Origin: Dietzia lutea
Lineage (GTDB): Bacteria > Actinomycetota > Actinomycetes > Mycobacteriales > Mycobacteriaceae
Assembly: GCF_003096075.1 (NCBI RefSeq)
Contig: NZ_CP015449.1
Location: 2,535,001-2,599,000 of the forward strand
DNA: 64,000 nucleotides
Direction: 5' to 3'
Below, piece by piece: positions 21,900 through 39,377 of this stretch. Position 1 is the first letter of the stretch; each line of letters opens with the position of its first letter. Position numbers and translations under genes: made by a program. The notes beneath the pieces were generated by a model, which worked only from the letters and a program-made list of their open reading frames with translations, did not search any database and was not told where the DNA came from.

Positions 21900-21935
21900 C
21901 GATCCTCCGGGTGCGTCTGTCGGGATGGTGCTCCT

Positions 21936-23485
21936 CTACTCCAGCATGCTTCCCGTCGCGGCGAAACGGGTGTGGAAGGAGAACGCCTCCTCGAGCATAT
22001 GCGGCGTGTTGCCGGCGTCGGGCCGGGCGTTCGCCCTGTCGAGGTAGTCGTGGAGCAGCGGCCGGTACGCCGGGTCGGCGCAGTTGTCCACGACGAGGCG
22101 CGCCCGCTTGCGGGGGCTGAGCCCGCGCAGGTCGGCCAGTCCGTGCTCGGTGACGATCACCTGGACGTCGTGTTCGGTGTGGTCGACGTGCGGGATCATG
22201 GGCACGATCGCCGACACCGCGCCGCCCTTCGCGGTGGACGGGCTCAGGAACATGGAGACGTACCCGTTGCGGGTGAAGTCGCCGGACCCGCCGATCCCGT
22301 TCATGATCCGGGTGCCGCACACGTGGGTCGAGTTGACGTTGCCGTACACGTCCGCCTCGAGCATGCCGTTCATCCCGATGATGCCCAGACGCCGGACGAT
22401 CTCCGGGTGGTTGCTGATCTCCTGCGGGCGCAGCGTGATGTGGTCACGGTAGAGGTCGATGTTGTCGACCAACTCCTCGAGACCCGCCTGCGACAGGGCG
22501 AGCGAGGTGGCGGAGGCGTGCGCGACCTTGCCCTCGCGGATGAGCCGCAGCATCGAGTCCTGGATGACCTCCGAGTAGCAGGTCAGGTTCTCGAACGGCC
22601 CGGCCTCCAACCCGGAGAGCACGGCGTTGGCGACGTTGCCGATCCCGGCCTGCAGCGGGAGGAGGCTGCCCGCGGGCATGCGCCCGCGCTCGACCTCGTG
22701 ACGGAAGAACTCCACGACGTGCCCGGCGATGGCCCGGCTGATCTCGTCGGGCTCGGTGAGCGCGCTCGCGGAGTCCTGCCGGTCGGTCGGCACCACGGCG
22801 ATCACCTTGGCCGGGTCGACCTCGAGGTGGGCCTGTCCGATCCGGTCGTCGGGACGGGTGAGCATGATCGGCCGACGCTCGGGCGGCAGCGCGGTGCCGT
22901 AGTAGACGTCGTGCATGCCCTCGACGCCCTGCGGGACCCACGAGTTCACCTCGAGGATCACCTTGTCCGCGACCTCGAGCCAGGTCTTGTTGTTGCCGAC
23001 GGACATCGCCGGGACGAGCTTGCCGTCGTCCGTCACCGCGGCCACCTCGACCACGGCGACGTCCACGTTCCCGTAGTAGCCCTCCCACACCTGCTGCGCG
23101 ACGTGCGACAGGTGGATGTCCACGTAGTCCACGCGGCCCTCGTTGATCGCGCGCCGCGCGGTGGGCTCGCTCTGGTACGGCATCCGGAGGTCGACGCCGT
23201 CGACCTCCGCGAGCATCGCCTCGGCCTCGTTGCTCACCGAGGCGCCGGTGAGCAGGTTCACGCGGAGCCGGCCGCCCGCCGCCCGGACGGCTCGCATCCG
23301 CTCGGCGAGCGCCGGCGCGAACGCCTTGGGGGTGCCCGCACTGGCGAACCCGCTGATCGCGCGGTGTCCCCGTCCTCGATGCGGGAGACCGCCGTGGCGG
23401 CGTCGGTGACGAGGTCCCGGAAGTGCGGATGACGGATACGCGCCGGGTCGAATGTCGTTCCCGACTGCTGGACAGTAGATCTCAT
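21936..23485 (-). pseudogene. Acetyl-CoA hydrolase/succinate CoA-transferase, frameshifted
   Basis: Cat1-like CoA-transferase. The N-terminus MRSTVQQSGTTFDPARIR starts at 23485 and is in frame to IEDGDT. The next conserved part, ISGFASAGTPKAFAPALAER, is in another frame, so one base is missing between 23355 and 23366. The rest (from 23357) is intact, with YSEVIQDSML (probable catalytic Glu), GMNGMLEADVYGNVNSTHV and GIGGSGDF. If repaired the protein would be about 516 residues, the family length. The cause may be a real mutation or a sequencing error. Divergent from the MarR regulator. Confidence 0.8.
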
Positions 23486-24343: not shown

Positions 24344-25774
24344 TCAGGGCACCTCGGTAGCGAGGACGCGGTCCTCGGTGATCTCGGCGTCCGCGTGGAT
24401 CTCGTTCTTGCTCGACTCGGTCATGAGCCACACGCACAGCATCGACATGACCGACAGCAGCGAGAGCATGATGCCCACTCCGAGCGTGTTGCCGGCGGCG
24501 ACCATCGCGGCGGCGGCCAGCGGCGGCAGCGCACCGCCGAGGATGCCGGCGAGGTTGTAGCCGAGTCCGGCACCGGTGTAGCGGTAGCGGGCCTGGAACA
24601 GCTCGGGCAGCAGTGCGCCGGCCGGGCCGTAGGCGATGCCGAAGATGATGAGTGTGACGAACAGGACCACGGCGAACGCGATCGGCGAACCGGTGTCGAG
24701 GATCGGGAACACGAACAGCGTCCAGACCACGGCCAGGGCGACCGAGGTGCCGATGACCTTCTTGCGTCCGATCCGGTCGGAGTAGATGGCCGAGACCGCG
24801 ATCGCGGCGCCGAAGATCAGTGCGGCGAGCATGCCCATGCCCAGGACGAACGGTCGCGGGTGCTCGAGGTTCTTGGTGGCGTAGTTCGTCAGGAACGACG
24901 TGCCCATGTAGAAGAGCGAGAACAGCGAGGTGAGCGCGCCACCGGCGATGAGGATTTCCTTCCACTGGAAGCGGATCGCATCGGCGAAGGGCAGCGTCCG
25001 GGGAGCGGTCTCCGTGGCGGCACGCGCGCGGTCCTGCTTGAAGACCGGGGTCTCCTCGACCGAGATGCGGATCCACAGGCCGATGAGGACCAGGACCGCG
25101 GACAGCAGGAACGGGATGCGCCAGCCGTACTGCATGAACGGGCTGTTGACGTCCGCGCCGTCGCCGGCGATGAGGGAGAACAGCAGGAAGGTGCCCGAGG
25201 AGAGGAAGAAGGCGAAGGCCACGCCGAGCTGGGGCCACATGCCCATCAGCCCGCGCTTGCCCTTGGGCGCGTACTCCGCGGTAAGCAGGGTCGCACCGGC
25301 CCATTCACCGCCGACGGCGAAGCCCTGGAAGAAGCGGCACGCCACGAGGAGAGTCGGCGCGAGGAGGCCGATACCGTTCTCGAACGCCCCGAAGGCCCCG
25401 GTGTCGTAGCCGGGCAGCAGGCCGATGAACACGGTCGCGACGCCCATGATCATGAGCGTCCAGACCAGGGTGCGCTTGCGACCGATCCGGTCGCCGAAGT
25501 GCCCGAAGACCGCCGCGCCGACGGGCCGCGCGAAGAACGCGACGGCGAACGTGGCGAAGGACGACAGGGTCGCCGTGGCCGGGTTCTGATCCGGGAAGAA
25601 CAGGGTCGGGAAGACGAGGGCCGCGGCGGTGCCGTAGATGAAGAAGTCGTACCACTCGATGGTCGTGCCGATCGAGGAGGCCGCGGCGACCTTCGCGAGC
25701 GAGGTCTTCTGGGTGGCCGGGGGCTGGTTCGGCGACGGTGCCGAATCGCCCGCGGGGAGGTTCGTGGCAGTCAA
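24344..25774 (-). CDS. MFS transporter, metabolite:H+ symporter (MHS) family
   Basis: Inner-membrane transporter with about 12 hydrophobic helices. From the TTG at 25774, with GGAG 5 nt upstream, it is 476 residues. The N-terminal cytosolic stretch is Pro/Ser-rich. SSIGTTIEWYDFFIYG is the typical start of helix 1 in the MHS group (ProP, KgtP, ShiA). The loop motifs DRIGRKRTLVWTL and, in the second half, YSDRIGRKKVIG follow. The substrate is probably a carboxylate, betaine or aromatic acid; nothing in the neighbourhood settles it. Confidence 0.87.
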   Translation of the reverse strand: MTATNLPAGDSAPSPNQPPATQKTSLAKVAAASSIGTTIEWYDFFIYGTAAALVFPTLFFPDQNPATATLSSFATFAVAFFARPVGAAVFGHFGDRIGRKRTLVWTLMIMGVATVFIGLLPGYDTGAFGAFENGIGLLAPTLLVACRFFQGFAVGGEWAGATLLTAEYAPKGKRGLMGMWPQLGVAFAFFLSSGTFLLFSLIAGDGADVNSPFMQYGWRIPFLLSAVLVLIGLWIRISVEETPVFKQDRARAATETAPRTLPFADAIRFQWKEILIAGGALTSLFSLFYMGTSFLTNYATKNLEHPRPFVLGMGMLAALIFGAAIAVSAIYSDRIGRKKVIGTSVALAVVWTLFVFPILDTGSPIAFAVVLFVTLIIFGIAYGPAGALLPELFQARYRYTGAGLGYNLAGILGGALPPLAAAAMVAAGNTLGVGIMLSLLSVMSMLCVWLMTESSKNEIHADAEITEDRVLATEVP

Positions 25775-25915
25775 GACAACTCCAAGTCCTGTGAGGGGCC
25801 GCCGGGTGAAGCCCCGGCGCTGTGGTCCCCGACGCGTGAACGTCGATTGACGGACAAGGTATGTGATGGCTGCCACACCCGCCTACACCCGAAAGTGGAG
25901 GGTGGGTGATCTGTC

Positions 25916-26887
25916 TCACGCGGTGGGCGCGGAGAGCTTCTGCGGAGCCCTGGTCCGGAACCACTCGACCGTGCGCGCGAGACCCTCCGCCCACGGGACG
26001 GCCGGCTCCCAGCCCAGCGCCTCGGTCGCCAGTGCGGTGTCCGGGCGCCGGACCTGCGGGTCGTCGACGGGACGGTCGATGTACCGGATCCGCGAGGACG
26101 AGCCGACCGCCTCGATGACGTCGCGGGCGATACGCAGCACCTCGAGCTCGTTGGGGTTGCCGATGTTCATCGGCCCCGCGTGGCCCGACTCGGCCAACGC
26201 GAGGATCCCGCGCACGAGATCGTCGACGAAGCACACCGACCGGGTCTGGGACCCGTCGCCGGCCACGGTGAGTTCCTCACCGCGCAGCGCCTGCCGGATG
26301 AAGGTCGGGATCGCCCGCCCGTCGTGCGGACGCATGCGGGGGCCGAAGGTGTTGAAGATGCGCACGATCGCCGTGTCGACGCCGTGGGTGGTGCGGTAGG
26401 CCTCGGTGAGCGCCTCCGCGTACCGCTTGGCCTCGTCGTACACCCCGCGGGGACCGACCGGGTTGACGTTGCCCCAGTACGTCTCGGGCTGGGGGTGCAC
26501 GAGCGGGTCGCCGTACACCTCGGAGGTCGAGGCCAGGACGAACCGGGCGCCCTTGTCGCGGGCGAGGCCCAGGGCGTTGTGTGTGCCCTGCGACCCCACG
26601 CGGAGAGTGTGGATGGGCAGCTTGAGGTAGTCGATCGGCGAGGCCGGGGACGCGAAGTGCAGGACGAGGTCGACCGGGCCCGGGACGTGGACGTAGTCGG
26701 TGACGTCACGCTCCATCAACTGGAACCCGGTGTCCGCGGCGAGGTGCGCGAGGTTGTCCGGGGTGCCGGTGAGGAAGTTGTCCAGGGCGACGACCTCGAC
26801 GCCGCGGCGGCGGAGCTCGGTGCACAGGTGGCTGCCGAGGAAACCGGCGCCTCCGGTGACGACGGCCCGTGCGATGGTTCGGGTCAT
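25916..26887 (-). CDS. NAD-dependent epimerase/dehydratase, UDP-glucuronate decarboxylase-like
   Basis: 323-residue extended SDR. Nucleotide-binding [11 protein letters not shown] near residue 11, [27 protein letters not shown], catalytic YDEAKRYAE (Y-x3-K) and FNTFGPRM. These segments match UDP-xylose synthase (UXS) much better than ADP-heptose epimerase HldD. It is the last gene of the heptose operon; its ATG overlaps the GT9 stop by 4 nt. It may make UDP-xylose for the glycan or act on the heptose nucleotide; the first is more likely from sequence. Confidence 0.85.
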
Positions 26888-27963
26888 GATGTGGTCCTCC
26901 CCGTGTCGTGGCTGAGTAGGTCGAAGGCGGAAGCGAGCACCTCGTCGGTCCGCACGGCGTCCAGCCGCGGATCGACGACGTCACCGTGGGGGTCGCCCCA
27001 CGAGTCGGCGTCCGGGTCGCCGTGCCACAGGACGTGGTGCAGGTGGGGGTCGATGAGCGGGCCCCACCACCGGGGCGGGACGGGACCGAAGAGGACCACC
27101 GACGGGGTGGCCAGCGCCGTCGCGAGGTGCGCGATTCCGGTGTCCCCGCTGAGGACGAGTGCGGCCCCGCGGACGAGGTCGGTCAGGGCGTCGAGGTCGA
27201 GCGCTCCCCCGGCGTCGGTCGCGCCGGGGGTCGACCCGGCGACCTCGGCCGTCAACGCCGCCTCGTCGGCCGAGCCGGTGATCACCACGCGGTGACCGTC
27301 CTCGGCCAGCGCGCGGGCGACGGCCGTCCACCGCTCGACAGGCCAGCGGCGTGCGGGCGCGGCGGCGCCGGGGTGGACGACGACCGGCCCCCCGGGAACC
27401 CCGCCGGATGATCCGCCGGGCGAGCGGTCGGCGGGGTCGGTGAGGCGGAGGTCCTCGGGGCCGCACGGCCCGCCGGCGTCGCTCACCAGGCGGCACCACC
27501 GGTGGACCTCGTGTTCGTCACGATGCCAGGGCGGGCCGGCGTGCCCCACCTCCGGGCAGTCGAACCCGATGAGGCGGCCGGGGTCCGTGGCGGTGAGCAG
27601 ACCTCGACTGGCCGGGCCGTTACCGTGCAGGTCCACCGCGATCTGTCCCCCGCGGATCGGCCCGAGCGGGACCAGGCCAGGGGTCGGCAGGACCGCGTCG
27701 ACGACGCCCAGGCGGGCCAGCCACCCCCCGACCCCTGCCGGGGCCGCCAGGACGAGACGCGACCCCGGTGCCAGTCGTCGCAGCCCCCGCAGTGGGGCGA
27801 TGCCGGCGAGGGCGTCCCCCATACCGAGGGCACGGAGGGCGAGTACGTCGCCGGATCCGATGTCCTCCGGCCGCGCTGCCCACGTCTCCTCGCGGGCGAC
27901 GTCGACGTGCGTGGGCACCCCGGCCGCCCGGAGCGCCTCGGCGGTGTAGGGCTCAACCGGCAT
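26884..27963 (-). CDS. Glycosyltransferase family 9 (heptosyltransferase family)
   Basis: 359 residues from the ATG at 27963, which overlaps the kinase gene by 11 nt. It resembles Gram-negative heptosyltransferases: [24 protein letters not shown] at the start, [19 protein letters not shown] (nucleotide-sugar binding), and [26 protein letters not shown]. The donor is inferred to be a nucleotide-activated heptose because HldE/GmhA/GmhB functions are encoded beside it. The acceptor is unknown; actinobacteria of this kind have no LPS. A second GT9 gene is at 32101-33213. Confidence 0.85.
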
Positions 27964-29326
27964 CGCTGATCCGATCGAGGATCGAGGTCGTGGACCGACC
28001 GGACAGGAGCGGGAGGATCTCGACCCGGCCGCCCCAGCTGTGGACGAGCGGTGCCTCCGGCAGGTCGGCCACGCGGTAGTCGCCGCCCTTGACCCAGACG
28101 TCGGGCCGCAGTGCGTCCAGCGCCTCACGCGGGTCGTCCTCGTCGAACACCACCACGGCGTCGACGCTGGCCAGCGCCTCGAGCAGCGCGCGCCGGTCGG
28201 CGACCGGGTTGACCGGACGACCGCGGCCCTTGAGCCTGCGTACGGAGGCGTCGGAGTTGAGCAGGACCACCAACAGGTCACCCAGCTCGCGGGCGGCGCG
28301 CAGGTACTGCGCGTGACCGGCGTGCAGGACGTCGAAGCAGCCGCCGGTCGCGACGATCACCCCGCCCGCCTCGCGGGTGCGGGCGATGCGGTGGGCGAAG
28401 CCGTCGAGGGTGCTCGGGGCGGGCTGGTTGCCACGGCCGCGGAACCCGGCGGCGCCACCCTCCGCCACCCACCGCGAGGCGTCGGCCACGGCCCGGGCCG
28501 CCGCGGTGGCCGCCGACTCCCGCCGGCTCAGCGACGCGGCGATCGACGCCGCGACGCGGTCACCCGCGCCGCACGGGTCGCCGGCCTCGCGCCCACCGGA
28601 CGGAATCTGCCGCAGGTCGTCCCCCTCTGCGAGCCAGGCGCCCTCGGAGCCGACGGTGACGACCACGGCGCGGGCCTCCCAGGCGCGGCGGAGCGCACGG
28701 GCGAGATCGCCCGGAAGTTCCGGGTCGGCGTCGAGGCCGAGGGCGCCCGCCGCGTCGAGGGCCTCGGCCAGATTCGGGGTGACGACAGCGCACCCGGGCA
28801 CGGGCGGCCCGCCCCGGGGGTGCGGGTCCCAGACCACGTCGCCGTCCCGCGCGGCCTGTTCGAGCCCCGCGCGCACCGCCGGGTCGCGGGTGGTCCCCGC
28901 GCCGTAATCGCTGACGAGCACGACCGCCCCGGCAAGCGCCTCGGCCAACCGGGCGGGGTCGACGTCCCGCGGGGTGGCCGGCCCGCCGTCGTCCACGCGG
29001 AGCAGGGTCTGGCCGCCGGCCCGGATGCGCGTCTTGGTGCGGGTGCCGCCCTCGTGCCCGAGCGCGCGGACGTCGATGTCGGCGAGCTCGGAGCGCAGTG
29101 TCTCCCCGGCGGCGTCGTCGGCCAGGGGCGCGACGAGCCGGACTCGGGGCACGCGGTCGATCCGGGCGCACATGAGCGCCGCCAACCCGGCGCCGCCGGG
29201 ACTCACGCGCGTGTGGTCGGCGTCCACGACGGGGACGGGGGCGTCGGGGCACAGTCTGGTCGACGTGCCCTCGAGGTCACGGTCGAGGACGACGTCTCCG
29301 ACGACGGCCACGGGGTCAGCGTGCAT
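27953..29326 (-). CDS. hldE: Bifunctional heptose-7-phosphate kinase / heptose-1-phosphate nucleotidyltransferase
   Basis: 457 residues, close to the about 477 of E. coli HldE and with the same domain order. Residues 1-310 are a PfkB-type kinase with SPGGAGLAA (42-50) and the catalytic DPCGAGDR (250-257). Residues 325-457 are a nucleotidyltransferase with GGCFDVLHAGHAQYL (328-342), WVKGGDY (411-417) and GRSTTSI (443-449). It would phosphorylate D-glycero-D-manno-heptose 7-phosphate at C1 and later attach the nucleotide. The nucleotide (ADP or GDP) is inferred from HldE similarity. It overlaps the genes on both sides by 11 nt. Confidence 0.88.
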   Translation of the reverse strand: MHADPVAVVGDVVLDRDLEGTSTRLCPDAPVPVVDADHTRVSPGGAGLAALMCARIDRVPRVRLVAPLADDAAGETLRSELADIDVRALGHEGGTRTKTRIRAGGQTLLRVDDGGPATPRDVDPARLAEALAGAVVLVSDYGAGTTRDPAVRAGLEQAARDGDVVWDPHPRGGPPVPGCAVVTPNLAEALDAAGALGLDADPELPGDLARALRRAWEARAVVVTVGSEGAWLAEGDDLRQIPSGGREAGDPCGAGDRVAASIAASLSRRESAATAAARAVADASRWVAEGGAAGFRGRGNQPAPSTLDGFAHRIARTREAGGVIVATGGCFDVLHAGHAQYLRAARELGDLLVVLLNSDASVRRLKGRGRPVNPVADRRALLEALASVDAVVVFDEDDPREALDALRPDVWVKGGDYRVADLPEAPLVHSWGGRVEILPLLSGRSTTSILDRISDAG

Positions 29327-31145
29327 TGTCCACCTCTCGGCTCCGGGGCAGCCGCGTGTCCACGGCGGCCGCGAGGGCGTGCAGGAGCACCAGGTGGCAC
29401 TCCTGGATCACCGCCGTGTTGCAGGAGGCGACCCGGATCGACTCGTCGCACTCCTCCTCGAGCGGGTTGGGTCCGCCTCCGGTGAGCGCCCATGTGGTGA
29501 CGCCGCGTTCGCGCGCCCGGCGGGCGGCGGCGATGACGTTCTCGCTGGTGCCGCTCGTGGACAGCAACACGAGGATGTCACCCGGCGAGGCGTGCGCCTC
29601 GACCTGGCGGGCGAAGACCTCCGCGTAGCCGTAGTCGTTGCCGATCGCGGTGAGCCCGGACAGATCGGAGGTCAGGGCGATCGCGGAGACAGGGCGCCGG
29701 TCCTCGATGAACCGTCCGACGAACTCGGCAGTGAAGTGCTGGGCCTCGGCCGCGCTGCCGCCGTTGCCGGCGGCCAGGAGCCGGCCGCCCGCGAGCAGGC
29801 GCGCGGTGAGCCGGCCCGCCCACCGGTCGAGGGTGGGCCCGTGTCGGGCGACGTCGTCGAGGGCCGCGCGCAGTCCCCCGAGGTGCGACTCGAGCCACCC
29901 GCTGGCGGGGGTCGCGTCCCCTGCCGTGCGGGGGGCGGCCGACCGCGCGGCGTCCGCGTAGGCGGCGAGGGTCGCGTCCACGACGCCGTCCCAGGAGAAG
30001 AGGGTCTCGACGCGCCGACGCGCAGCGACTCCCATGGCCTCCGCGCGGTCGCGGTCGTCGAGCAGCTCGGTCACCGCCCGGGTGACAGCCGCCTGGTCGC
30101 CGGGTGGCACGAGTAGCCCGGTGACCCCGTCGTCGACGGAGTCGAGCAGCCCGCCCACGGCCGTGCCGACGAGGGGGCGGCCGCACGCCATGGCCTCGAG
30201 CGGGACCATACCGAAGGGTTCGTACCACGGGGTCACCACCACGACATCGGCGGAGGCGAGCAGGGCGGCGGCGTCCGGGCGGTCGAGCCGCCCGGTGAAG
30301 GTCACCCGGTCGTCGACACCGAGTTCGCGCGCGAGCGCCTGCAGCCGCACGGCCTCGGGGTCGCGGTCGAGTTCCGTGCGGTCGGGCCCGCCGGCCACGA
30401 CGAGGTCGGCGTCGGGAATCGAGCTGAGCGTGCGGATGGCGTGGTCGATGCCCTTGCGCGGCACCATCCGGCCGAGCGAGACGATCCGGCGGTACCCGTC
30501 GCGGCGCGGCGGCAGGTGTTCCGCACGCGTCCGGTGGGCGTCGGGGCGGAACAGTTCGAGGTCGACCCCGCAGGGGATGACGTGGATCCGGTCGGGATCG
30601 GAGCCGAGATCGACGAGCTCGCGGCGTTCGTCGCGACAGCTGGCGGTGACGGCGTCGGCTCCGGTGGCGAGCGCGACCTCGTCGGCGAGGCGGCCGGGCG
30701 GGCTGGTGTCCGCACTGCCCTGGTGACGCCGCTTGACCACGCCGAGGGCGTGGAACGTCTGGAGGAAGGGCACGTCGACCGTCTGCCGGGCGCGCTGCAC
30801 GGCCAACCCGGACATCCAGAAGTGGGCGTGGGCGACGTCGGGGACCCCGTCGGCGAGCCAGTGCCGGGCGAGCGCACGCCCGAACTCGTCCATGTAGGGG
30901 GCGAGCTCGTCCTTGGGCAGCGGGGCCGGAGGCCCGGCGGTGACGTGGACCAGCTGCACGCGCTCGGCGAGCCGGATCGTCTCGTGCGCCGAGGCCGACT
31001 CTCTACGGGTGTAGACGGTGACGTCGTGGCCGCGCGCGCCGAGGCCGGTCGCCAGCTCGGCGACGTACACGTTCTGGCCGCCGGCGTCCTCCCCGCCGAG
31101 CGCGGCCAGGGGGCTCGCGTGTTCCGATACGAGTGCGATCCTCAT
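29316..31145 (-). CDS. Fusion: GT4 glycosyltransferase + GmhA-like heptose-phosphate isomerase
   Basis: 609 residues with two enzymes in one chain. Residues 1-400 are a GT4 glycosyltransferase: MRIALVSEHASPLAALGGED start, SLGRMVPRKGID (223-234), and EPFGMVPLEAMACGRPLV (309-326). Residues 415-609 are a SIS-fold phosphoheptose isomerase: NGGSAAEAQH (461-470), STSGTSENVI (529-538), IQECHLVLLH (580-589). The zinc/catalytic set of GmhA is intact as H470, E474, Q581 and H589, with the same spacing as H61, E65, Q172, H180 in E. coli. It starts the heptose pathway from sedoheptulose 7-phosphate while adding a sugar elsewhere. The ATG overlaps the upstream stop by 4 nt. Confidence 0.9.
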   Translation of the reverse strand: MRIALVSEHASPLAALGGEDAGGQNVYVAELATGLGARGHDVTVYTRRESASAHETIRLAERVQLVHVTAGPPAPLPKDELAPYMDEFGRALARHWLADGVPDVAHAHFWMSGLAVQRARQTVDVPFLQTFHALGVVKRRHQGSADTSPPGRLADEVALATGADAVTASCRDERRELVDLGSDPDRIHVIPCGVDLELFRPDAHRTRAEHLPPRRDGYRRIVSLGRMVPRKGIDHAIRTLSSIPDADLVVAGGPDRTELDRDPEAVRLQALARELGVDDRVTFTGRLDRPDAAALLASADVVVVTPWYEPFGMVPLEAMACGRPLVGTAVGGLLDSVDDGVTGLLVPPGDQAAVTRAVTELLDDRDRAEAMGVAARRRVETLFSWDGVVDATLAAYADAARSAAPRTAGDATPASGWLESHLGGLRAALDDVARHGPTLDRWAGRLTARLLAGGRLLAAGNGGSAAEAQHFTAEFVGRFIEDRRPVSAIALTSDLSGLTAIGNDYGYAEVFARQVEAHASPGDILVLLSTSGTSENVIAAARRARERGVTTWALTGGGPNPLEEECDESIRVASCNTAVIQECHLVLLHALAAAVDTRLPRSREVDNAR

Positions 31146-32113
31146 GCCGTCACCTCCTGCAGGACGGTGTCCCAGTCCGCGAGGAAGCGGCCGAGTCCAT
31201 AGTGGCGCAGTGCGTGGTCCCGGGCGGCGGCGCCGGCCGCCGCGGCGGCGTCGCGGTCGTGAAGCCAGTCCCGGGCGCGCGCGAGCAGCTCGTCAGGGTC
31301 GTTGCTGAGCAGGCCCGCCTCGGGCGGCACCGCGTGGGGCGCCTCGGTGGTGCTCAGCGCCAGGACCGGCATGCCGAGCGTCATGGCCTCGAGCAGGGCC
31401 AGGCCGAGGCTGGTCCACCGGTACGGGTGGAAGTAGGCGCGGTGGCGGCCGAGCGTGCGGTGCAGTTCGGCCTGGGGCGGGTTCTCGTGCAGCGTCGGCG
31501 CGAGGTGCGGCGCGAGCTCGGCGAGCTCGTCCATCCCCATGCCGTAGACGTGGAGGGAAACCTGACGTCCCAGGTCCACGACGAGGTCGGTGCCGGCGAT
31601 GCGGCCACGGCGTACCGGTTCGTTGACGACGACGGCGAGGCTGGCGTCCTCCCCCGTCCACGCCCGCCCCGGGTCGACGATGCCGTGCTCGACCACGCCG
31701 GTGCGCGCGGATCCGCAGTCCCACATCATGCGGTTGAAGCGGGTGACGTGGATGACGGGCACCCGGTCCTGGTCGGCCATCGGGTGCCGGGAGCTGACCG
31801 CGTGCTCGCGGGGGGTGTCGTGCTCGACGTAGACGGCCGGCACGTCGACGCCGGCCCGCAGTCCCGTCCACTCGCGCAGCAGGTCGACCTCGTGGGCACG
31901 TTGGAGGACCACCACGTCGATCCCGCCGCCCGTGGCCTGTTCGCGCAGCTGCCCGGGGTCGAGCTCGGAGACCGACGCGGGCCAGTCCCACGTCTGCGCG
32001 CGGCCGCGGCCGTCGGGGCCCCGGTCCGGCAGGACCGGCACGAGGTACTCGTGGTCACCCTGGACGAAGGACGTGGTCCAGGATCCGTGGACGTGCCAGA
32101 TCAGGATGCGCAT
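31142..32113 (-). CDS. Glycosyltransferase, GT4-like
   Basis: 323 residues from the ATG at 32113 (MRILIWHVHGSWTTSFVQGD). The N-terminal half binds an acceptor; VEHDTPREH, VTRFNRMMWDCG and the C-terminal YRWTSLGLALLEAMTLGMPVL, equivalent to the E-x7-E donor-binding motif of GT4 enzymes, are visible. Its ATG is 13 nt inside the end of the GT9 gene. The long open frame reading through from 34051 is a shadow. Donor and acceptor unknown. Confidence 0.8.
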   Translation of the reverse strand: MRILIWHVHGSWTTSFVQGDHEYLVPVLPDRGPDGRGRAQTWDWPASVSELDPGQLREQATGGGIDVVVLQRAHEVDLLREWTGLRAGVDVPAVYVEHDTPREHAVSSRHPMADQDRVPVIHVTRFNRMMWDCGSARTGVVEHGIVDPGRAWTGEDASLAVVVNEPVRRGRIAGTDLVVDLGRQVSLHVYGMGMDELAELAPHLAPTLHENPPQAELHRTLGRHRAYFHPYRWTSLGLALLEAMTLGMPVLALSTTEAPHAVPPEAGLLSNDPDELLARARDWLHDRDAAAAAGAAARDHALRHYGLGRFLADWDTVLQEVTA

Positions 32114-33213
32114 CGGGTTCTCCTCTCCGTGGCGAGTTCGGTGACGGCGGAGACCACCTGGTCCGGCGGGACGCCGGTCAGGCACGGGTGCCCGTCGACG
32201 GGGCACTCGCGGGCGCGGGTGTCCCGGCACGGCGCGTGTTGGTCGCCGAGGAGGCGTACGGGCACGCCCCACGGCGCCCAGCGGTCGGCGGGGACGACCG
32301 GGGAGAACAGCGAGACGACGGGGGTGCCGACGGCGGCGGCCAGGTGGGCGGGGCCGGTGTTGCCGACGACGACGACGGCCGCCCGCTCGAGCACCGCGGC
32401 CAGCTGCGCCAGGTCGGTGCGTCCGGCGAGGTCGAGGACGCCGCCGTCGGTGCGGTGGGAGCCGTCGGCGCCCCGGGTGTCGTGGGGGCCGTCGCCGCCG
32501 GTGCCGCCGGGGCACGCGGCTAGGGTCCGGGCGACCAGCTCGCGCTCGCCGGGGCCGCCGGTGACCGCGACGAGGTACCCGACGTCGCGCAGCGCCGCGA
32601 CGATGCGGCCGGCGTGGGCGGGCGTGAGCGACCGGGCGGGGACGGACGCGCCGGGGTGGACGACGACGAGGTCGCGCCCGTCGCCTGGGAGCAGGTCGGT
32701 CACGTCGGGAAGCGGGTGCCGCACGGCGAGGCCGGGGATGCGGTCCGGTCGCCGGGCGCCGGCCGCGACGGCGATCTCGACGGCGGCCTCGACCTCGTGC
32801 CCGCCGCCGGGCGGGTCGTCGCGGCGGACGCGCACGTCGAGCAGCGAGCCGGGGTAGTCCACGCTGGCGGCGGCGATGAAGGGCACGCTGGCCAGCCGCA
32901 GCAGCAGCGCCATCGGCAGGGGGCTCTGGTGGAAGGAGGTGAACACCACCGCCCGGTCGTAGCCCCCGGACGCGATCCGCTCGACCAGCTCCGCGGTGGC
33001 GGCGCGGTCGACCGGCGGCGGGCGGAAGCCCGACCAGGGGGCGTCGTGGACCAGCACCTCGGAGACCGCCGGGAGGAGCCCGGCGGCCGCCAGGCCCTGG
33101 GAGGAGACCAGCAGGTCGACCACGTCGCCGGTCTCCGCCAGCAGGGTCAGGGCGGGGCCGCAGAGCAGCACGTCGCCGTCGGAGTCGAGCCGGACGGCCA
33201 GGGTTCGTCCCAT
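32101..33213 (-). CDS. Glycosyltransferase family 9 (heptosyltransferase family), second copy
   Basis: 370 residues from the ATG at 33213 (MGRTLAVRLDSDGDVLLCGP), sharing 1 nt with the upstream stop (TGATG). GT9 motifs: LVVVHPGASVPARSLTP and VVVVGNTGPAHLAAAVGTPVVSLFSPVVP. A Gly/Asp/His-rich insert (about 290-310) precedes the second motif. CRDTRARECPVDGHPCL near the end has three cysteines, as in some WaaC/WaaF relatives. Together with the gene at 26884 it gives two heptosyltransferase-type enzymes in one operon. Confidence 0.85.
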   Translation of the reverse strand: MGRTLAVRLDSDGDVLLCGPALTLLAETGDVVDLLVSSQGLAAAGLLPAVSEVLVHDAPWSGFRPPPVDRAATAELVERIASGGYDRAVVFTSFHQSPLPMALLLRLASVPFIAAASVDYPGSLLDVRVRRDDPPGGGHEVEAAVEIAVAAGARRPDRIPGLAVRHPLPDVTDLLPGDGRDLVVVHPGASVPARSLTPAHAGRIVAALRDVGYLVAVTGGPGERELVARTLAACPGGTGGDGPHDTRGADGSHRTDGGVLDLAGRTDLAQLAAVLERAAVVVVGNTGPAHLAAAVGTPVVSLFSPVVPADRWAPWGVPVRLLGDQHAPCRDTRARECPVDGHPCLTGVPPDQVVSAVTELATERRTRCAS

Positions 33214-34838
33214 CAGCGCAGCACCTCCCCCACCGCCGTGAGCAGGTCGGGGGCGACGCACGGGGCGTCGCGGACCTCCTCGGGCCGGGTGACCGGGGTG
33301 GGTACGAGGACCGGCCGGGCACGTGCGGCCAGGGCGGCCTCGACGTCGGCGCCGATGTCCCCGATGACCACGCACTCACGCGGGTCGACGCCGAGGTCGG
33401 CGGCGGCGCCGGTGACGAGGCCGGGTTCGGGCTTGCGGCAGCCGCACCCGTCCTCCGGTCCGTGCGGGCAGTAGCGCCAGGTGTCCATCCCGCCGAGGAG
33501 CTCGTCGACCCGGGCGTTGACCGCGCGGACCGCCGCCTCGTCGAGCAGTCCGCGGGCGATCCCGGACTGGTTGGAGACCACACCCACCGCCAGGCCCGCG
33601 GCGCGGGCCCGGTCGACGGCCTCGCGGGCGCCGGGCATGAGCTCGACCTTCTCCGGGTCCCCGTTGTAGGGCACGTCCCGCACGAGGGTGCCGTCGCGGT
33701 CGAACAGCACCGCGCGGGGCGTCGGCGGCCACGGCGTCGCGTCACGGTGGCGTCGCCACCCGTCGACCCGGTGGCGGACCGCCGCGAACGGGATGGTGAG
33801 CGAGGTCGGGACCATCCGGCGCGCCTCGGCGCGGAACTCCGGGTGGCCGGGCCGGGGCCCGGGGCCGAGTCGGATGGCCAGGAAGCGCGTGGTGAGTCCG
33901 GCCCAGGCCAGCGCACCGACTCCGGCCGCCGCGCCGGCCGCACGGGCGGTGCCGGCCGCGCCGCCCGTCCCGGCATCGGCCCCGGTCGCGTAGCCCGCGG
34001 CGGGCGTGGTGCGCGCCCACGCGCCCGCGGCCACCGCCGTGGCAGCGCCACCCGCGGCGACCAGCGCCGCGGCCACCGTCGCGACGTGGTAGCCGAACCC
34101 GCCGCCCGGGGCCTGCGCCACCTCGCGCCAGCGCGGGCCGTGCAACCTCCGCATGAGGGCGTCGTCGGCGTTGCCTGCCTGCAGGCGCAGGCTCACCCCG
34201 TCGTCGGCCGGGCGCACGGGGTGGATGATGTGCCGCGCACCGCGGGTGAGCGACCAGCCCGCGCGGCGGATCCGCAGCGCGAGATCGGCGTCCTCGCGGA
34301 AGGCCCGGGGGAACCGCTCGTCGAAGCCCGCCACCTGCTCGAGGGCCGCGCGGCGGTACGCCATGTCCGCGGTCGCCCAGTCCGCGCCCTCGAGCGCGGC
34401 GACGTTGCGCTCCCAGTCCGTCGGCGGGCGATCGGTCGGACGCGGCACGCGGATCGAGGCCTGCGTGGCGCCCGTGTCCGGGCCGCACGCCGCGAGGTCG
34501 TCCACGAGTCCGGGGAGCCACCCGTCGGGCAGGATCACGTCGTCGTCGAGGAAGGAGATCCACTCGGGTGCCGACTCGCGGGTGGCCTGCCAGCCGCGGT
34601 TTCGGGCGGCGGCGGGTCCGCGCCCGTAGCCGCGGACGACTCGCAGTGGCCAGTCGACGCCCGGCAGGCTCGCCGTCAGCGGCTCGACGCGCCCCGGCCG
34701 GTCGTCGACGAGCACGACCTCCACGGGTGCCGGGTGGGCGTCGTCGGTCCGCTGCGCGGCCAGGGAGTCGAGCATCGCCTGCAGGCACGGTCGACCGATG
34801 GTGGGCACGACGATCGCCCAGCGGGGCGCTCGGCTCAT
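33213..34838 (-). CDS. Fusion: GT2 glycosyltransferase + GmhB-like heptose-bisphosphate phosphatase
   Basis: 541 residues. Residues 1-240 are a GT-A fold family-2 glycosyltransferase: VVPTIGRP (10-17), LVDDRPG, AARNRGW and the DDD metal site (98-100). Residues 250-320 are an Ala/Gly-rich, hydrophobic linker that could span or touch the membrane. Residues 375-541 are a HAD-IIIA phosphatase: DRDGTL (380-385), SNQSGIARG (422-430), zinc loop CPHGPEDGCGCRKP (457-470) and GDIGAD (493-498). The zinc loop is a GmhB hallmark, so it should remove the 7-phosphate of heptose 1,7-bisphosphate. The ATG overlaps the carbamoyltransferase stop by 4 nt. Confidence 0.9.
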   Translation of the reverse strand: MSRAPRWAIVVPTIGRPCLQAMLDSLAAQRTDDAHPAPVEVVLVDDRPGRVEPLTASLPGVDWPLRVVRGYGRGPAAARNRGWQATRESAPEWISFLDDDVILPDGWLPGLVDDLAACGPDTGATQASIRVPRPTDRPPTDWERNVAALEGADWATADMAYRRAALEQVAGFDERFPRAFREDADLALRIRRAGWSLTRGARHIIHPVRPADDGVSLRLQAGNADDALMRRLHGPRWREVAQAPGGGFGYHVATVAAALVAAGGAATAVAAGAWARTTPAAGYATGADAGTGGAAGTARAAGAAAGVGALAWAGLTTRFLAIRLGPGPRPGHPEFRAEARRMVPTSLTIPFAAVRHRVDGWRRHRDATPWPPTPRAVLFDRDGTLVRDVPYNGDPEKVELMPGAREAVDRARAAGLAVGVVSNQSGIARGLLDEAAVRAVNARVDELLGGMDTWRYCPHGPEDGCGCRKPEPGLVTGAAADLGVDPRECVVIGDIGADVEAALAARARPVLVPTPVTRPEEVRDAPCVAPDLLTAVGEVLR

Positions 34839-36475
34839 GCGTCACCGCCGGCCACGAAGTCCGCGCGGCGCACGAGGTGCGGGCCGAGCACCAGCGCGGC
34901 GACCGGCGCCGACCCGAACAACTCGAGGGCGTCACGGGGATCGTCGACCATGGGTCGGCCGGCCGTGTTGAGGCTCGTGTTGACCAGCACCGGGACGCCG
35001 GTCCGCGCCTCGAAGGCGCGCAGCAGGTCGGCGACCCTGGGCGTGTCGGTGTCGGAGACGGTCTGGACCCGCGCGGTGCCGTCGGTGTGCACCACTGCGG
35101 GCAGCCTGTCCCGCCATTCGGGCCGCACGGTGTGCACGAACAGCATGTACGGACTCGGCAGCGGGCCGTCGGTGACGATGTCGGCGGCGCGTTCGGCGAG
35201 GATCATGGGGGCGACGGGCCGGAACTGCTCGCGACCCTTGACGTCGTTGAGCCGCTCGACGTTCGTGGCCCGCGTCGGGTTGGCCAGCAGGGACCGGCGG
35301 CCCAGCGCCCGGGGGCCGAACTCACTACGCCCGTCGAACCACGCGATGACGCCGTCGTCGGCGAGCAGATCGGCCACCTCGCCCGCCAGGTCCTCCGGGG
35401 TGGTGAAGGGCACGCGGGCCGCGGTGAGCCACTGCGCCAGCTCGTCGTCGTCCCATCCACGCCCCGCCGCGGGGTCCACGGCACCCGGGGCGAGCTCGTC
35501 CTGCTCGCGCGCCAGGTGCAGCGCCGCTCCCAGGGCGGTGCCGGAGTCGCCGGACGCCGGCTGGACCCACACCTCCTCGAAGGGGCCCTCGCGCCAGATC
35601 CGCGTGTTGGCCACGCAGTTCAGCGCGGTCCCGCCCGCCATGGTGAGCACGGTCGCGCGCGTCTGCCGGTGAAGCCACTCCGCGTTGGCGACCAAGACCT
35701 CCTCGACCCCGGCCTGCACCGACGCGGCGAGGTCGGCGTGCACGCCGCCCCACGTCCCGTCGTCGACGCGGCGGGGCGCGAACCGCTCCCACTCCGGGGC
35801 GCGCGCGGTGAACCCCCCGTCCGGGTTCGCGTGCAGACTCTCGCGCAGCTCGGGCAGGAAGCGAGGCTCGCCGTAGGAGGCCAGCGCCATCACCTTGAAC
35901 TCATCGCTCGAGCGCAGGAAGCCCAGGTGCTCGGTGAGCGACTCGTAGTACAGGCCCAGCGAATCGGGCAGGTCCTGGCGGTGACAGATCTCGAGCTCGC
36001 CGTCGCGGTAGTGGCCGGCGAGCTGGGAGTGCCGCTCCCCCCGGCCGTCGTTGACCAGGACCGCGCACGTGCGGTGCGGCCCGGCCAGGGCGGCGGAGGC
36101 GGCGTGCGCGACGTGGTGCTCGACGAACCGCACCCGGCCGGGGTCCAGTCCGGGCAGCGCCTCGGCGAGGAACTCGGGCGCGCGCCGCACGTAGTCGATC
36201 CGCACCGGGTCGAAGGGGTCGTCGGGCTGCGGCGCCGCCAGCTCGGCGTCGAAGGCGTACCCCACCGCGTCGAGGTCGGCCGCGGTGACGCCGGCCTCCT
36301 CGAGGCACCAGCGCATCGACAGCTCCGGTAACTCCCACGCCGAGAACGGCACCGGCCGCTTGGCGTGCTTGCGGCGGGAGAAGCGTTCCTCCTCGGCGGC
36401 GGCTACCACGCGTCCGTCGACGACCAGCGCGGCGGACGAATCGTGGAAGGTGGCATTGACTCCCAAGACGATCAT
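34835..36475 (-). CDS. Carbamoyltransferase, NodU/CmcH family
   Basis: 546 residues, normal for the family. N-terminal Kae1-like ASKHA domain starts MIVLGVNATFHDSSAALV, with VEHHVAHAASA (metal-site histidines) and the C-terminal domain FGPRALGRRSLLANP, FRPVAPMIL, VLVNTSLN. Family members transfer carbamoyl from carbamoyl-phosphate to a hydroxyl on a sugar or antibiotic, via carbamoyl-adenylate. As first gene of the eight-gene heptose operon it would carbamoylate the glycan made there. The ATG at 36475 lies 52 nt after a glycosyltransferase gene, so the operon may begin further upstream. Confidence 0.9.
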   Translation of the reverse strand: MIVLGVNATFHDSSAALVVDGRVVAAAEEERFSRRKHAKRPVPFSAWELPELSMRWCLEEAGVTAADLDAVGYAFDAELAAPQPDDPFDPVRIDYVRRAPEFLAEALPGLDPGRVRFVEHHVAHAASAALAGPHRTCAVLVNDGRGERHSQLAGHYRDGELEICHRQDLPDSLGLYYESLTEHLGFLRSSDEFKVMALASYGEPRFLPELRESLHANPDGGFTARAPEWERFAPRRVDDGTWGGVHADLAASVQAGVEEVLVANAEWLHRQTRATVLTMAGGTALNCVANTRIWREGPFEEVWVQPASGDSGTALGAALHLAREQDELAPGAVDPAAGRGWDDDELAQWLTAARVPFTTPEDLAGEVADLLADDGVIAWFDGRSEFGPRALGRRSLLANPTRATNVERLNDVKGREQFRPVAPMILAERAADIVTDGPLPSPYMLFVHTVRPEWRDRLPAVVHTDGTARVQTVSDTDTPRVADLLRAFEARTGVPVLVNTSLNTAGRPMVDDPRDALELFGSAPVAALVLGPHLVRRADFVAGGDA

Positions 36476-36527: not shown

Positions 36528-37448
36528 TCAACTGTCGTAGCGCCGTGCCGCGCTGGACCTCTGGCTCTCCTCGAGGGCCAGGAAACGGGCCTCGACGTGC
36601 GGCGGCAGGACCCGCCGATCCCTCGCCACCCAGGCCGCGCCGCGGAGGGCGTCGAGTACCCCCGCAGCGGTGACGCGATCCCGCGGCGCGCCCGCGAGGA
36701 CGTCTCGGGTGCGCCGGAGCGCGGCGGGCAACGGTCGGCGGAGCCACGTGAACCACAGGGTGTTGCGGATGCCGTGACGGCGGCGCAGGTGCGGATCCCG
36801 CAACACCGACGCCCGGTGGTGCACGGTCATCTCGGGCAGGTAGCACAGCTCCCATCCCGCGGCGGCGAGGTCGGCCGCGAGCAGCTCCTCCTCGCCACCC
36901 AGCCACAGGCGCTCGTGGAAGCCGCCGACCTCCCGGTACGCCTCCGCCCGGACGATGCTCGCCCCCGCGAGGAAGCTGCCGAGCGCCGGCCCGGGCAGCC
37001 AGTCCGGTCCGCGCACCGGCGAGTTCTCCAGCTCCGGCACGATCGGGTCGTCCTCGCCGCCCGGCTCCACGACGATCCGCGCGGTGACCACGCCCAGCCG
37101 TGGATGCGCGTCGAGGGCGTCGGCCCCGGCGCGCAGCGAACCCGGGTCCCACCACGTGTCGTCGTCGCAGAACGCGACGTAGGGGGTGCTCGCCGCGTCC
37201 ACGCCGAGGTTGCGACCGACCGCGCCGAGGTTCGTGGGGCTGGCGATGAGCCGCACGTCGGGGTGCTGCCGGGTGATGGCGTCGGCGGTGCCGTCGGTGG
37301 ACCCGTTGTCGACGACGATGACCTCCGGCACCTCGGGGAGCCCCGCCAGACGGTCCAGAGCGGCGAGCGCCTCCTCGCGGCGGTTCCAGGTGATCATCAC
37401 CACGCTCACCCTGGGATCCCGGCCCTCCGGCCCCGGTGCACTGCTCAT
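36528..37448 (-). CDS. Glycosyltransferase family 2
   Basis: 306 residues from the ATG at 37448, preceded by GGAAGGAGAGACGG. GT-A fold pattern: VSVVMITWNRREEAL, VIVVDNGSTDGTAD, and the metal-binding AFCDDDTWWDPGSL, then GGEEELLAADLAAAGWELCYLPE. It is clearly related to the next gene (37521-38366), with the same DDD-x-WW and GEEE blocks, suggesting a tandem duplication. A rhamnosyl- or galactosyl-type transferase is likely, but the sugar is not readable. Confidence 0.85.
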   Translation of the reverse strand: MSSAPGPEGRDPRVSVVMITWNRREEALAALDRLAGLPEVPEVIVVDNGSTDGTADAITRQHPDVRLIASPTNLGAVGRNLGVDAASTPYVAFCDDDTWWDPGSLRAGADALDAHPRLGVVTARIVVEPGGEDDPIVPELENSPVRGPDWLPGPALGSFLAGASIVRAEAYREVGGFHERLWLGGEEELLAADLAAAGWELCYLPEMTVHHRASVLRDPHLRRRHGIRNTLWFTWLRRPLPAALRRTRDVLAGAPRDRVTAAGVLDALRGAAWVARDRRVLPPHVEARFLALEESQRSSAARRYDS

Positions 37449-37520
37449 CCGTCTCTCCTTCCGTGTGCTTCCACCTGTCCCCTGTGGGGCTTCTACCCCT
37501 CGTCCGCGGCGCGGACCCAT

Positions 37521-38366
37521 CTATCCGTCGTCCGCGGCGCGGAGCCGCTCCCGCGCGCGCAGCGTGCGCTCCCCCACCACCCGGCGCGCGGCGAGCGCGG
37601 CGGGAATCCTCGGAACCGCGCTGAGTAGTCCCCTCCGCCCGTCCGCGCTGCGCATCCCGTCCACGACCTCACCCGCGACCGCGCCCGCCGGCAACCGGAG
37701 GACCGCGGTGAGGAGGCGGCTGCGGGTGAGTCCCGCCCGGCGGATCCCCGGCGCGTCACGCACCGGCGACGGGTGGTGGTGAGCCACGAGGTCCGGGACG
37801 TGGCAGATCTGCCAGCCCGCGTCGTGCAGGTCGAGGGCGACCCGCTCCTCCTCGCCGGGAAAGCGGATGACGTCGTCGAATCCACCCACGCCGAGGAACG
37901 CCTCGCGGCGGACGATCGCACCGCACCCGACGAAACCCAGGAGGCCCGGGCCCGGGGCGTCCGGCGCGGTGCCCAGGGGCGAGTCGGCGAGGACCGCGTT
38001 GATCGGGTCCGGCTCGTCCGCCGGTCCCACGAGGATGGTGCCGGCGGCCAGTCCGAGGCGCGGATACTCGGCGAAGAGCCGCACCGCCCGCTCGAGGGAG
38101 TCCGGCTCCCACCACGAGTCGTCGTCGGCGAACGCGACGAGCTCGGTCCGCGCCGCCCGCGCGCCGACGGTGCGGGCCCTCGCGGCGAGGTTCTCGGGGG
38201 ACGCGATGACGCTCACGTGGTCGCCCGCCGCGCGGCACACCTCCACCGAGTCGTCGTCCGAGGCGTTGTCCACGACGATCACGGGCGCGTCATGGCGGGG
38301 CAGGGTGGCCCGGAGGTCCTCTCGCCGGTTCCTCGAGGCCACCACGACGGTCACGTTGGTGTTCAC
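37521..38366 (-). CDS. Glycosyltransferase family 2, paralogue
   Basis: 281 residues from the GTG at 38366 (VNTNVTVVVASRNRREDL). Motifs: VIVVDNASDDDSVE, AFADDDSWWEPDSLERA, FPGEEERVALDLHDAGWQICHVPD. No strong ribosome-binding site is seen, so translation may be leaderless. Only 66 nt separate its start from that of the divergent pyruvyltransferase-like gene. The long frame continuing to 39572 is a shadow of that gene. Confidence 0.83.
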   Translation of the reverse strand: MNTNVTVVVASRNRREDLRATLPRHDAPVIVVDNASDDDSVEVCRAAGDHVSVIASPENLAARARTVGARAARTELVAFADDDSWWEPDSLERAVRLFAEYPRLGLAAGTILVGPADEPDPINAVLADSPLGTAPDAPGPGLLGFVGCGAIVRREAFLGVGGFDDVIRFPGEEERVALDLHDAGWQICHVPDLVAHHHPSPVRDAPGIRRAGLTRSRLLTAVLRLPAGAVAGEVVDGMRSADGRRGLLSAVPRIPAALAARRVVGERTLRARERLRAADDG

Positions 38367-38432
38367 CGGCCCGAGGCTAGCCCGACGAGGCGGGGCTGGC
38401 GGGGCGGAGCCGTGTCGGGCAGGCTCGATGGG

Positions 38433-39377
38433 GTGCGCGTACTCATCGTCGGTTGGTCCAGTCCCCTGCACGGCGAGGCCACGGCCGGCGACGTCCTGGC
38501 GATGGAGGCGGTGGCCCGTCGCCTCACCGCCGACGGGATCGGTCACGACACTGCCTGGAGCGCGGTGATGTGCCCGCCCGGCGGCCTCCGCCTCGACGAC
38601 GTCGACCCCGCCCACTACACCCACGTGGTCTTCGTGTGCGGCCCCGCCAGCGGCGATGCCGCGGTCGAGATGCTGGACCGCTTCCCCCGCTGCCGACGGA
38701 TCGCGGTCGGCGTCAGCGTCGTGGACCACGCCGATCCCCTGCTCGACCGACTCGACGCCGTGATCGCCCGCGACTCCCCCGGTTCGACCGCGCGACCCGA
38801 CCTGGCCGCGCACGTCTCGCCACCGGTGGTGCCCGTCGTCGGGGTGTACCTGACCGGCGGCCAACACGAGTACGGCGACCGTCGCCGCCACGAGGCCGTG
38901 ATCGGCGCGCTCACCGACTGGCTGGGCGGCCTGGACGCGGCGCTGCTGCCGCTGGAGACCCGACTCGACCCCCGCGACTGGCGGCTGCCCTCGACGCCCG
39001 GTCAGGTGAGCTCGGTGATCGCCCGCCTGGACGCCGTGGTGACGATGCGGATGCACGGACTCGTTCTGGCCCTGCAGACCGGCGTACCCGCACTGGCCAT
39101 CGATCCGATCAGCGGTGGCGGCAAGGTGTCCGCGCAGGCCGCGGCGTGGGACTGGCCGGCGGTCATCGGCGCCGACGACCTCGGCGCGGGCGCGCCCGGA
39201 GCCGACGCGTTCACCGCCGACGGCCTGGGCGCCCCCGGCCCAGGTGAGACCGTTCTCGACCACTGGTGGCGCTGGTGCCTGTCCCCCGACGGGCGCGCCG
39301 CCGCGCGCCGACTCGCCGACGACCGGCCGACCGACGGCATGCTCGACGAACTGATGGAGGCACTGCGGAGGCGGTGA
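38433..39377 (+). CDS. Polysaccharide pyruvyltransferase-like protein (CsaB family)
   Basis: 314 residues from the GTG at 38433 (MRVLIVGWSSPLHGE when started there); a GTG 7 codons upstream (38412) is an alternative, and neither has a strong Shine-Dalgarno. The family's C-terminal signature VTMRMHGLVLALQTGVPALAID is clear, with VGVSVVDHADPLLD and FVCGPASGD in the N-terminal lobe. Such enzymes transfer pyruvate from PEP to a sugar as a ketal, adding negative charge to surface glycans; some relatives are glycosyltransferases. Divergent from two GT2 genes. Confidence 0.75.
   Translation: MRVLIVGWSSPLHGEATAGDVLAMEAVARRLTADGIGHDTAWSAVMCPPGGLRLDDVDPAHYTHVVFVCGPASGDAAVEMLDRFPRCRRIAVGVSVVDHADPLLDRLDAVIARDSPGSTARPDLAAHVSPPVVPVVGVYLTGGQHEYGDRRRHEAVIGALTDWLGGLDAALLPLETRLDPRDWRLPSTPGQVSSVIARLDAVVTMRMHGLVLALQTGVPALAIDPISGGGKVSAQAAAWDWPAVIGADDLGAGAPGADAFTADGLGAPGPGETVLDHWWRWCLSPDGRAAARRLADDRPTDGMLDELMEALRRR

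Follow-up and report, generated by a model that had tools for sequence, protein, structure and literature searches.

What an actinobacterium makes with a full set of nucleotide-heptose enzymes, and whether such a set is anything new, is the question raised by a gene cluster of Dietzia lutea. The window, i.e. the whole stretch of 64,000 nucleotides analysed here (contig NZ_CP015449.1 of assembly GCF_003096075.1, positions 2,535,001 to 2,599,000), holds on its minus strand a tight run of ten open reading frames (ORFs). A first-pass annotation, made from the DNA letters alone, had described most of this run as a heptose pathway with heptosyltransferases, and as exceptional in an actinobacterium. 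Judged from gene content and gene order, the Dietzia genes are homologous to the cwg operon of Streptomyces coelicolor and belong to that known kind of operon, not to a new one. The probable product is a carbamoylated surface glycan in which an activated heptose, made by enzymes of the operon, is combined with further sugars.

Predicted heptose activation genes of the operon

Based on the ORFs of the window and on profile searches, the genes between 38366 and 25916 form a single operon (Table 1). In 5' to 3' order these are GT2a, GT2b, an O-carbamoyltransferase, GT2-GmhB, GT9a, GT4b, GT4a-GmhA, HldE, GT9b and a short-chain dehydrogenase/reductase (SDR), GT denoting glycosyltransferases. Adjacent genes abut or share 1-13 bases, the sole exception being 52 bases between GT2b and the carbamoyltransferase gene. 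The earlier description of an overlapping operon was thus right as to a tight minus-strand operon, but the interval then given (25916..36475) lacked the two GT2 genes at the upstream end, some genes abut instead of overlapping, and one gap is present. Probable starts lie within the longest ORFs of GT9b (ATG, 27963), GT4b (32113), GT9a (33213) and GT2a (GTG, 38366). All domain families named in the first pass (GmhA, HldE-type and GmhB domains, two GT9s, further GTs, an SDR resembling UDP-xylose synthase and a carbamoyltransferase) were recovered by profile searches far above chance.

The operon encodes all four domains needed to form nucleoside diphosphate (NDP)-beta-D-manno-heptose from sedoheptulose 7-phosphate (GmhA, kinase, GmhB and nucleotidyltransferase), with GmhA and GmhB as the C-terminal domains of GT fusions (GT4-GmhA, 609 amino acids; GT2-GmhB, 541 amino acids). 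HldE combines PF00294 (E 6e-22) with PF01467 (E 1.5e-19), and its nucleotidyltransferase domain exceeds the cut-off of TIGR02199 (184 vs 181.5 bits), whereas the whole protein stays below the cut-off of PRK11316 (NF008454; E 2e-80, 271 vs 521 bits), as does the kinase domain below that of TIGR02198 (128 vs 345 bits). Scores below the cut-off were also obtained for GmhA (TIGR00441, residues 446-595; E 2e-46, 158 vs 209 bits) and GmhB (PRK08942; E 1e-33, 116 vs 178 bits). Such a mixture is what a distant branch would be expected to give.

When compared with the PDB, the GmhA domain matched the GmhA structure 2xbl (E 3e-41) and the GmhB domain the GmhB structures 4pnh and 2gmw. In alignments with the solved enzymes, GNGGSAAEAQHFTAEF and IQECH are retained in the GmhA domain, DRDGT, the zinc loop CPHGPEDGCGCRKP and the GD motif in the GmhB domain, and GAGD (kinase) and GCFDVLHAGH (nucleotidyltransferase) in HldE, so that the active-site motifs are intact, as had been claimed; we take the conserved residues of these motifs to be the catalytic ones. 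Among relatives, 93 of 94 GmhB segments carry the CxH...CxC motif and 64 of 94 a DRDGT-type motif, with DRDD at that place in many of the others, and the GmhA motif pair is found in 77 of 89 segments, the second pattern missing in 12. The operon GmhA domain is the one SIS_2 (GmhA-type) match in a profile search of the Dietzia genome.

Kinship with the cwg operon

In S. coelicolor, cwg (SCO6179-6190, cwgA-L) is a predicted cell wall glycan operon, sigmaE-linked and vancomycin-induced, of the envelope-stress regulon (PMC6767563, PMC5839063). Its members include SCO6186 (cwgH), a putative phosphoheptose isomerase, SCO6187 (cwgI), a bifunctional synthase/transferase (PMC5839063), and SCO6183 (cwgE), annotated as a putative heptosyl transferase (PMC5882110). 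The comparison was made through a locus of Streptomyces violaceorubidus (L122), which has the order SDR, carbamoyltransferase (Carb), GT2, GmhB, GT9a, GT4b, GT4a, GmhA, HldE, GT9b, GT2, GT2. This locus matches the published sigmaE promoter of S. coelicolor cwg with 2 mismatches in 29 positions (0 matches in 100 shuffles), and the match lies 146 bases 5' of an in-frame GTG, the published distance being 147 (PMC6767563). The promoter match and the partly agreeing printed gene names support the kinship with cwg. All 12 functions of the locus are shared with Dietzia, and the centre Carb-GT2-GmhB-GT9a-GT4b-GT4a-GmhA-HldE-GT9b is collinear. The two differ in gene number, as the fusions GT2-GmhB and GT4a-GmhA reduce the 12 genes to 10 ORFs in Dietzia, and their ends are swapped, with the GT2 pair first and the SDR last in Dietzia and the SDR first in Streptomyces.

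Other known systems resemble the operon in part. The Gram-negative ADP-heptose pathway likewise comprises GmhA, bifunctional HldE and GmhB domains, and the two GT9s are nearest to WaaF/WaaC; in contrast, the Dietzia genome holds no HldD above cut-off, and its GmhA and GmhB are fused to GTs. Three activities of the Dietzia set recur, by their description, in the actinobacterial NDP-heptose synthetases of tridomain type (GmhA, kinase and nucleotidyltransferase; Tang et al. 2022, as cited in PMC11573728 and PMC10948575), whereas in Dietzia GmhA is joined to a GT4 and HldE is separate. In the Pseudomonas WapO system, again compared by description, a carbamoyltransferase lies beside heptose-synthesis and heptosyltransferase genes (PMC8005017), although the product there is the lipopolysaccharide (LPS) core.

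Proposed pathway and product

Reading the reactions and the sugars from the encoded domains, we propose that the GmhA domain would convert sedoheptulose 7-phosphate into D-glycero-D-manno-heptose 7-phosphate, that the kinase domain of HldE would form the beta-1,7-bisphosphate, and that the GmhB domain would remove its 7-phosphate before nucleotide transfer. For a PfkB/HldE-type kinase, a route to beta-anomeric ADP-heptose is expected. Regarding the earlier proposal of ADP- or GDP-heptose, ADP (or CDP/UDP) fits, while a kinase of this type gives no hint of GDP. An Arg at position 5 of the motif (F/L)XXGXSTT permits the use of CTP and UTP as well, according to a commentary (PMC11461863) on the work of Tang et al. 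2024; this STTR5 motif reads LLSGRSTT in Dietzia, i.e. with Arg at position 5, and the Dietzia HldE is therefore predicted to be promiscuous for CTP/UTP. Among 88 segments of the HldE C-domain, 40 have Arg at this position and 9 gave no motif match. The residue is Arg in clusters of the Dietzia, Streptomyces and Cellulomonas type and mainly Tyr or His elsewhere, e.g. in loci of the family; a switch in nucleotide use between clades is one possible meaning of this difference.

In the Dietzia genome, no HldD above cut-off was found (best TIGR02197 match 95.8 vs 274.6 bits). Since no C-6 epimerase is evident, the heptose is probably D-glycero-D-manno-heptose, used directly without C-6 epimerisation. 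The SDR of the operon was considered for the HldD role and rejected (TIGR02197, 61.7 bits against the same cut-off). Compared with the PDB, it is nearest to UDP-glucuronate decarboxylase (UDP-xylose synthase), not to HldD, GalE or RmlB: human-type UDP-glucuronate decarboxylase (PDB 4gll/2b69) scored 333 bits and the next enzyme type 129 bits, in agreement with the first assignment. The SDR would thus form UDP-xylose, with a dehydrogenase encoded elsewhere in the genome providing the UDP-glucuronate. This step is supported by two nucleotide-sugar dehydrogenases above cut-off elsewhere in the genome and by UDP-glucose 6-dehydrogenase homologues in related clusters (12 of the 20 family loci and 19 of the 80 named loci, 15 of these among the 61 long ones; for the loci see below).

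The seven GTs of the operon (two GT9, three GT2, two GT4) would then assemble an oligosaccharide with heptose and probably xylose. WaaF/WaaC are the nearest solved structures to both GT9s (WaaF 1psw, E 2e-13 for GT9a and 2e-11 for GT9b), and both miss the curated heptosyltransferase equivalog cut-offs. GT9b has the donor motif DTG, as in WaaC, and GT9a has NTG, as do 87 of 94 GT9a segments. GT2a was the best tblastn match in 10 of the 61 long named loci, the remaining cluster GT2s being nearer to GT2b.

To this oligosaccharide, the carbamoyltransferase would attach an O-carbamoyl group. Its best PDB match is 7xb6 (E 3e-90), followed by novobiocin-type enzymes, TobZ and GdmN, and homologues occur in 45 of the 61 long named loci. 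In Pseudomonas LPS, a carbamoyltransferase has been linked to carbamoylated heptose (PMC8005017), a precedent that makes O-carbamoyl-heptose plausible in the product. By analogy with Streptomyces, where it is itself a prediction, the product would be delivered to the cell envelope. With pathway domains, GT9s and an O-carbamoyltransferase in one operon, the first-pass suggestion of a carbamoylated, heptose-containing glycan still appears the best reading.

Alternative explanations

The envelope acceptor could be a lipid or a protein, in which case cytoplasmic GTs would extend it and the product would be a heptose-containing glycolipid, lipoglycan or glycoprotein. We consider this unlikely. Profile searches of the ten operon genes gave no sign of a flippase, a polymerase or an initiating phosphosugar transferase, which speaks for such an acceptor, as does the MshA-like character of GT4a (TIGR03449, E 9e-75, below cut-off); the MshA-like family acts on soluble or inositol-type acceptors. 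On the other hand, the literature treats cwg, the characterised relative, as an operon for a cell wall glycan and places it in the envelope-stress regulon, although that name is itself predicted and does not fix the acceptor. A small-molecule acceptor, i.e. a secondary-metabolite cluster comparable to those of septacidin or hygromycin B, seems most improbable to us. NDP-heptose is so used in Streptomyces (Tang 2018, as cited in PMC10948575), a cytochrome P450 and a pyruvyl-transferase-like gene adjoin the operon in divergent orientation, and the operon is accessory in Dietzia; against this, no scaffold-forming gene was seen among the operon genes, which include seven GTs, the operon is conserved with cwg, and the P450 is present at the site without the operon in both such genomes read. 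That the GmhA, HldE, GmhB and GT9 homologues use other sugars (hexose or other heptose phosphates), so that no manno-heptose is formed, is also very unlikely in our view. The single-domain scores under several curated cut-offs, the NTG variant of GT9a and the genome without an HldD over cut-off would fit such a shift, but four activities of one pathway stand side by side, TIGR02199 is exceeded, and the active-site motifs agree with those of solved GmhA, HldE-domain and GmhB enzymes.

Several points weigh against a heptose-containing surface glycan of cwg type as the product. Curated cut-offs are missed by most single-domain models (TIGR02198, TIGR00441, NF006506), although TIGR02199 and the Pfam models reach theirs, and the donor of GT9a, with its NTG, may be a sugar other than heptose. 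Weak points of the scheme are its acceptor, the way of export and which donor each of the seven GTs uses. As for cwg, the S. coelicolor genes were assigned from published names and by position, and SCO6182 (cwgD), which is printed as 'putative dehydratase' (PMC5839063), was equated with GmhB by position only. Nineteen of 23 Dietzia genomes, some of them incomplete, gave no match to the GT4a-GmhA fusion, and the glycan would therefore be dispensable in the genus. Finally, the conservation counts given below carry an upward bias.

Taken as a heptose, UDP-xylose and carbamoyl pathway, the cluster leads to a chemical prediction for the wall, namely D,D-heptose, xylose and carbamoyl groups. The structure of the cwg glycan is not given in the parts of the cwg literature examined. 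Likewise, we found no report on the product of a Dietzia-type cluster in literature searches on Dietzia and heptose, on heptosyltransferase with carbamoyltransferase in actinobacteria, on a heptose wall glycan of Streptomyces and on GT-isomerase fusions; a heptose assignment for cwg may already have been published. As cwg is described as a vancomycin-induced envelope-stress target in Streptomyces, an unsolved wall-stress glycan becomes testable, and the small Dietzia genome, with related species devoid of the block, offers a natural comparison. Because NDP-heptoses are immune agonists (PMC11461863), Gram-positive producers of them also matter for innate immunity. A bolder generalisation is that cwg-type Actinomycetota, Dietzia among them, make a conserved, stress-responsive envelope oligosaccharide resembling the inner core of Gram-negative LPS, with O-carbamoylated D,D-heptose and xylose, that fusions of heptose-forming enzymes with GTs acting on their product or its neighbours channel substrate, and that Dietzia acquired the block laterally; we regard this combination as possible, though doubtful.

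Distribution among Actinomycetota

Based on gene content, clusters of the cwg type occur across many families of Actinomycetota. Two sets of loci were used, 80 named loci, which are the best 80 of 521 relatives found with the GT9a profile (all 80 with actinobacterial titles) and include the subset of 61 long ones, and 20 loci of the same family chosen by HldE match. In these sets, whose selection by GT9a or HldE match biases the conservation counts upward, 63 of the 80 named loci hold the six core parts together (GmhA, both HldE domains, GmhB, GT9a and GT9b), and 35 hold eleven parts, the core being joined there by Carb, the SDR, GT2c and the two GT4s; for the 20 family loci the respective numbers are 16 and 11. 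Among sampled genomes, which are draws and not censuses, the cut-off of TIGR02199 is exceeded in 15 of 151 of the family and 198 of 397 of the order, and the GT9a (cwgE-type) profile has matches at E up to 1e-60 in at least 25 of 201 of the family and at least 30 of 296 of the phylum, both lower bounds with 7-10 candidates scored per genome. The outcome in the order, obtained with this HldE nucleotidyltransferase model, together with the 521 GT9a relatives, rules out a cluster unique to or exceptional in the order. The published cwg homologue and the actinobacterial NDP-heptose synthetases already in print likewise speak against framing a heptose pathway as exceptional in an actinobacterium.

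What is unusual in the Dietzia operon is its fusions. GT2-GmhB is a single ORF in 14 of 20 family loci and in 43 ORFs across the 80 named loci, and is split in L122. GT4a-GmhA is a single ORF in 2 of 20 family loci, the Dietzia ones, and the named set has three such loci among its 80, from Dietzia aurantiaca, a Citricoccus bin and Pedococcus. Seven of the 80 named loci, all with cwg-like clusters, are of the tridomain type, with GmhA joined to the two HldE domains in a single ORF (L100, L106, L107, L110, L114, L117 and L127). Many relatives have a classical PF00106 SDR gene placed between HldE and GT9b (e.g. L066:8824-9570, L070:8760-9491, L072:10325-11068); 16 of the 20 family loci and 36 of the 61 long named ones contain a homologue, and the operon in the Dietzia window has no such gene.

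Insertion site and history in Dietzia

Full-length matches to the GT4a-GmhA fusion were found in 4 of the 23 Dietzia genomes. The operon sits at a site with borders that are conserved in the genus. In the 23 genomes surveyed, the spacing from the major facilitator superfamily (MFS) gene to the 3-hydroxyisobutyrate-dehydrogenase-like gene is 1.0-1.3 kb in 11 and close to 2.4 kb in 4, whereas three operon carriers show some 15.8 kb; one further carrier has the flanks on separate contigs, and 4 were unresolved. Five operon-free sites were read, three with the LuxR gene alone between the flanks and two with P450 and LuxR.

The operon has a guanine plus cytosine (GC) content of 75.4%, against 70.5% for the parts of the window outside it that served for comparison. 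A tree was built from five concatenated segments, with 77 of the 101 loci having each segment at >=70% length and so being included. In this tree, Dietzia falls among 22 rows that also comprise Cellulomonas, Georgenia, Nakamurella and others (SH-like approximate likelihood ratio test, SH-aLRT, 99), apart from Nocardia and most rows of the same family, although one further genome of the family (G017) also falls in the Dietzia set. Vertical descent with Nocardia and the other family members in the tree was rejected, in that a tree with Dietzia constrained to 18 of these rows did not hold (approximately unbiased test, p-AU 6e-41), in a comparison of two trees with the constrained group named after tree inspection. 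Because of the higher GC content and the grouping with Cellulomonas, Georgenia and Nakamurella homologues, the operon was likely transferred laterally into Dietzia. Its history may have been one lateral gain with later loss, or repeated recombination.

Table 1. Genes of the Dietzia operon, in 5' to 3' order, and genes bordering the insertion site
Feature	Position in window	Strand	Evidence and remarks
GT2a, first operon gene	37521..38366	-	PF00535 E 3.6e-18 in longer ORF; GTG start 38366
GT2b	36528..37520	-	PF00535 E 1.4e-23; abuts GT2a
O-carbamoyltransferase, 546 amino acids	34835..36475	-	PF16861 E 7e-63, PF02543 E 4e-47; cwgB counterpart by position
GT2 (N) / GmhB-like heptose-1,7-bisphosphate phosphatase (C) fusion	33213..34838	-	PF00535 residues 9-120; NF006506 residues 375-521 E 1.2e-33
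GT9a	32101..33213	-	NCBIfam heptosyltransferase models, best E 4e-14; cwgE counterpart by position
GT4b	31142..32113	-	PF13692 E 5e-9, PF00534 E 1e-8 in longer ORF; ATG 32113
MshA-like GT4a (N) / GmhA sedoheptulose-7-phosphate isomerase (C) fusion, 609 amino acids	29316..31145	-	PF00534 E 1.3e-37, PF13580 E 2.8e-22
HldE-type heptose 7-phosphate kinase / heptose 1-phosphate nucleotidyltransferase, 457 amino acids	27953..29326	-	TIGR02199, NF008454, LLSGRSTT
GT9b	26884..27963	-	PF01075 E 1e-24; ATG 27963; cwgJ counterpart by position
UDP-glucuronate decarboxylase (UDP-xylose synthase)-like SDR, last operon gene	25916..26887	-	PF01370 E 2e-50; PDB 4gll/2b69; cwgA counterpart
MFS transporter, flank	24344-25876	-	conserved insertion-site border in genus
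LuxR/GAF regulator, flank	40860-41723	-	conserved insertion-site border in genus
3-hydroxyisobutyrate-dehydrogenase-like gene, flank	41748-42653	-	conserved insertion-site border in genus

Divergent from the operon, on the plus strand at 38421-40804, lie a polysaccharide-pyruvyl-transferase-like gene (PF04230, E 3e-10) and the cytochrome P450 gene, and the same pair adjoins the operon in both other operon-bearing Dietzia sites read. Past the MFS gene at the other end (20442-23297, minus strand), genes for an AtuA-like protein and an acetyl-CoA hydrolase/transferase-like protein suggest a catabolic cluster.

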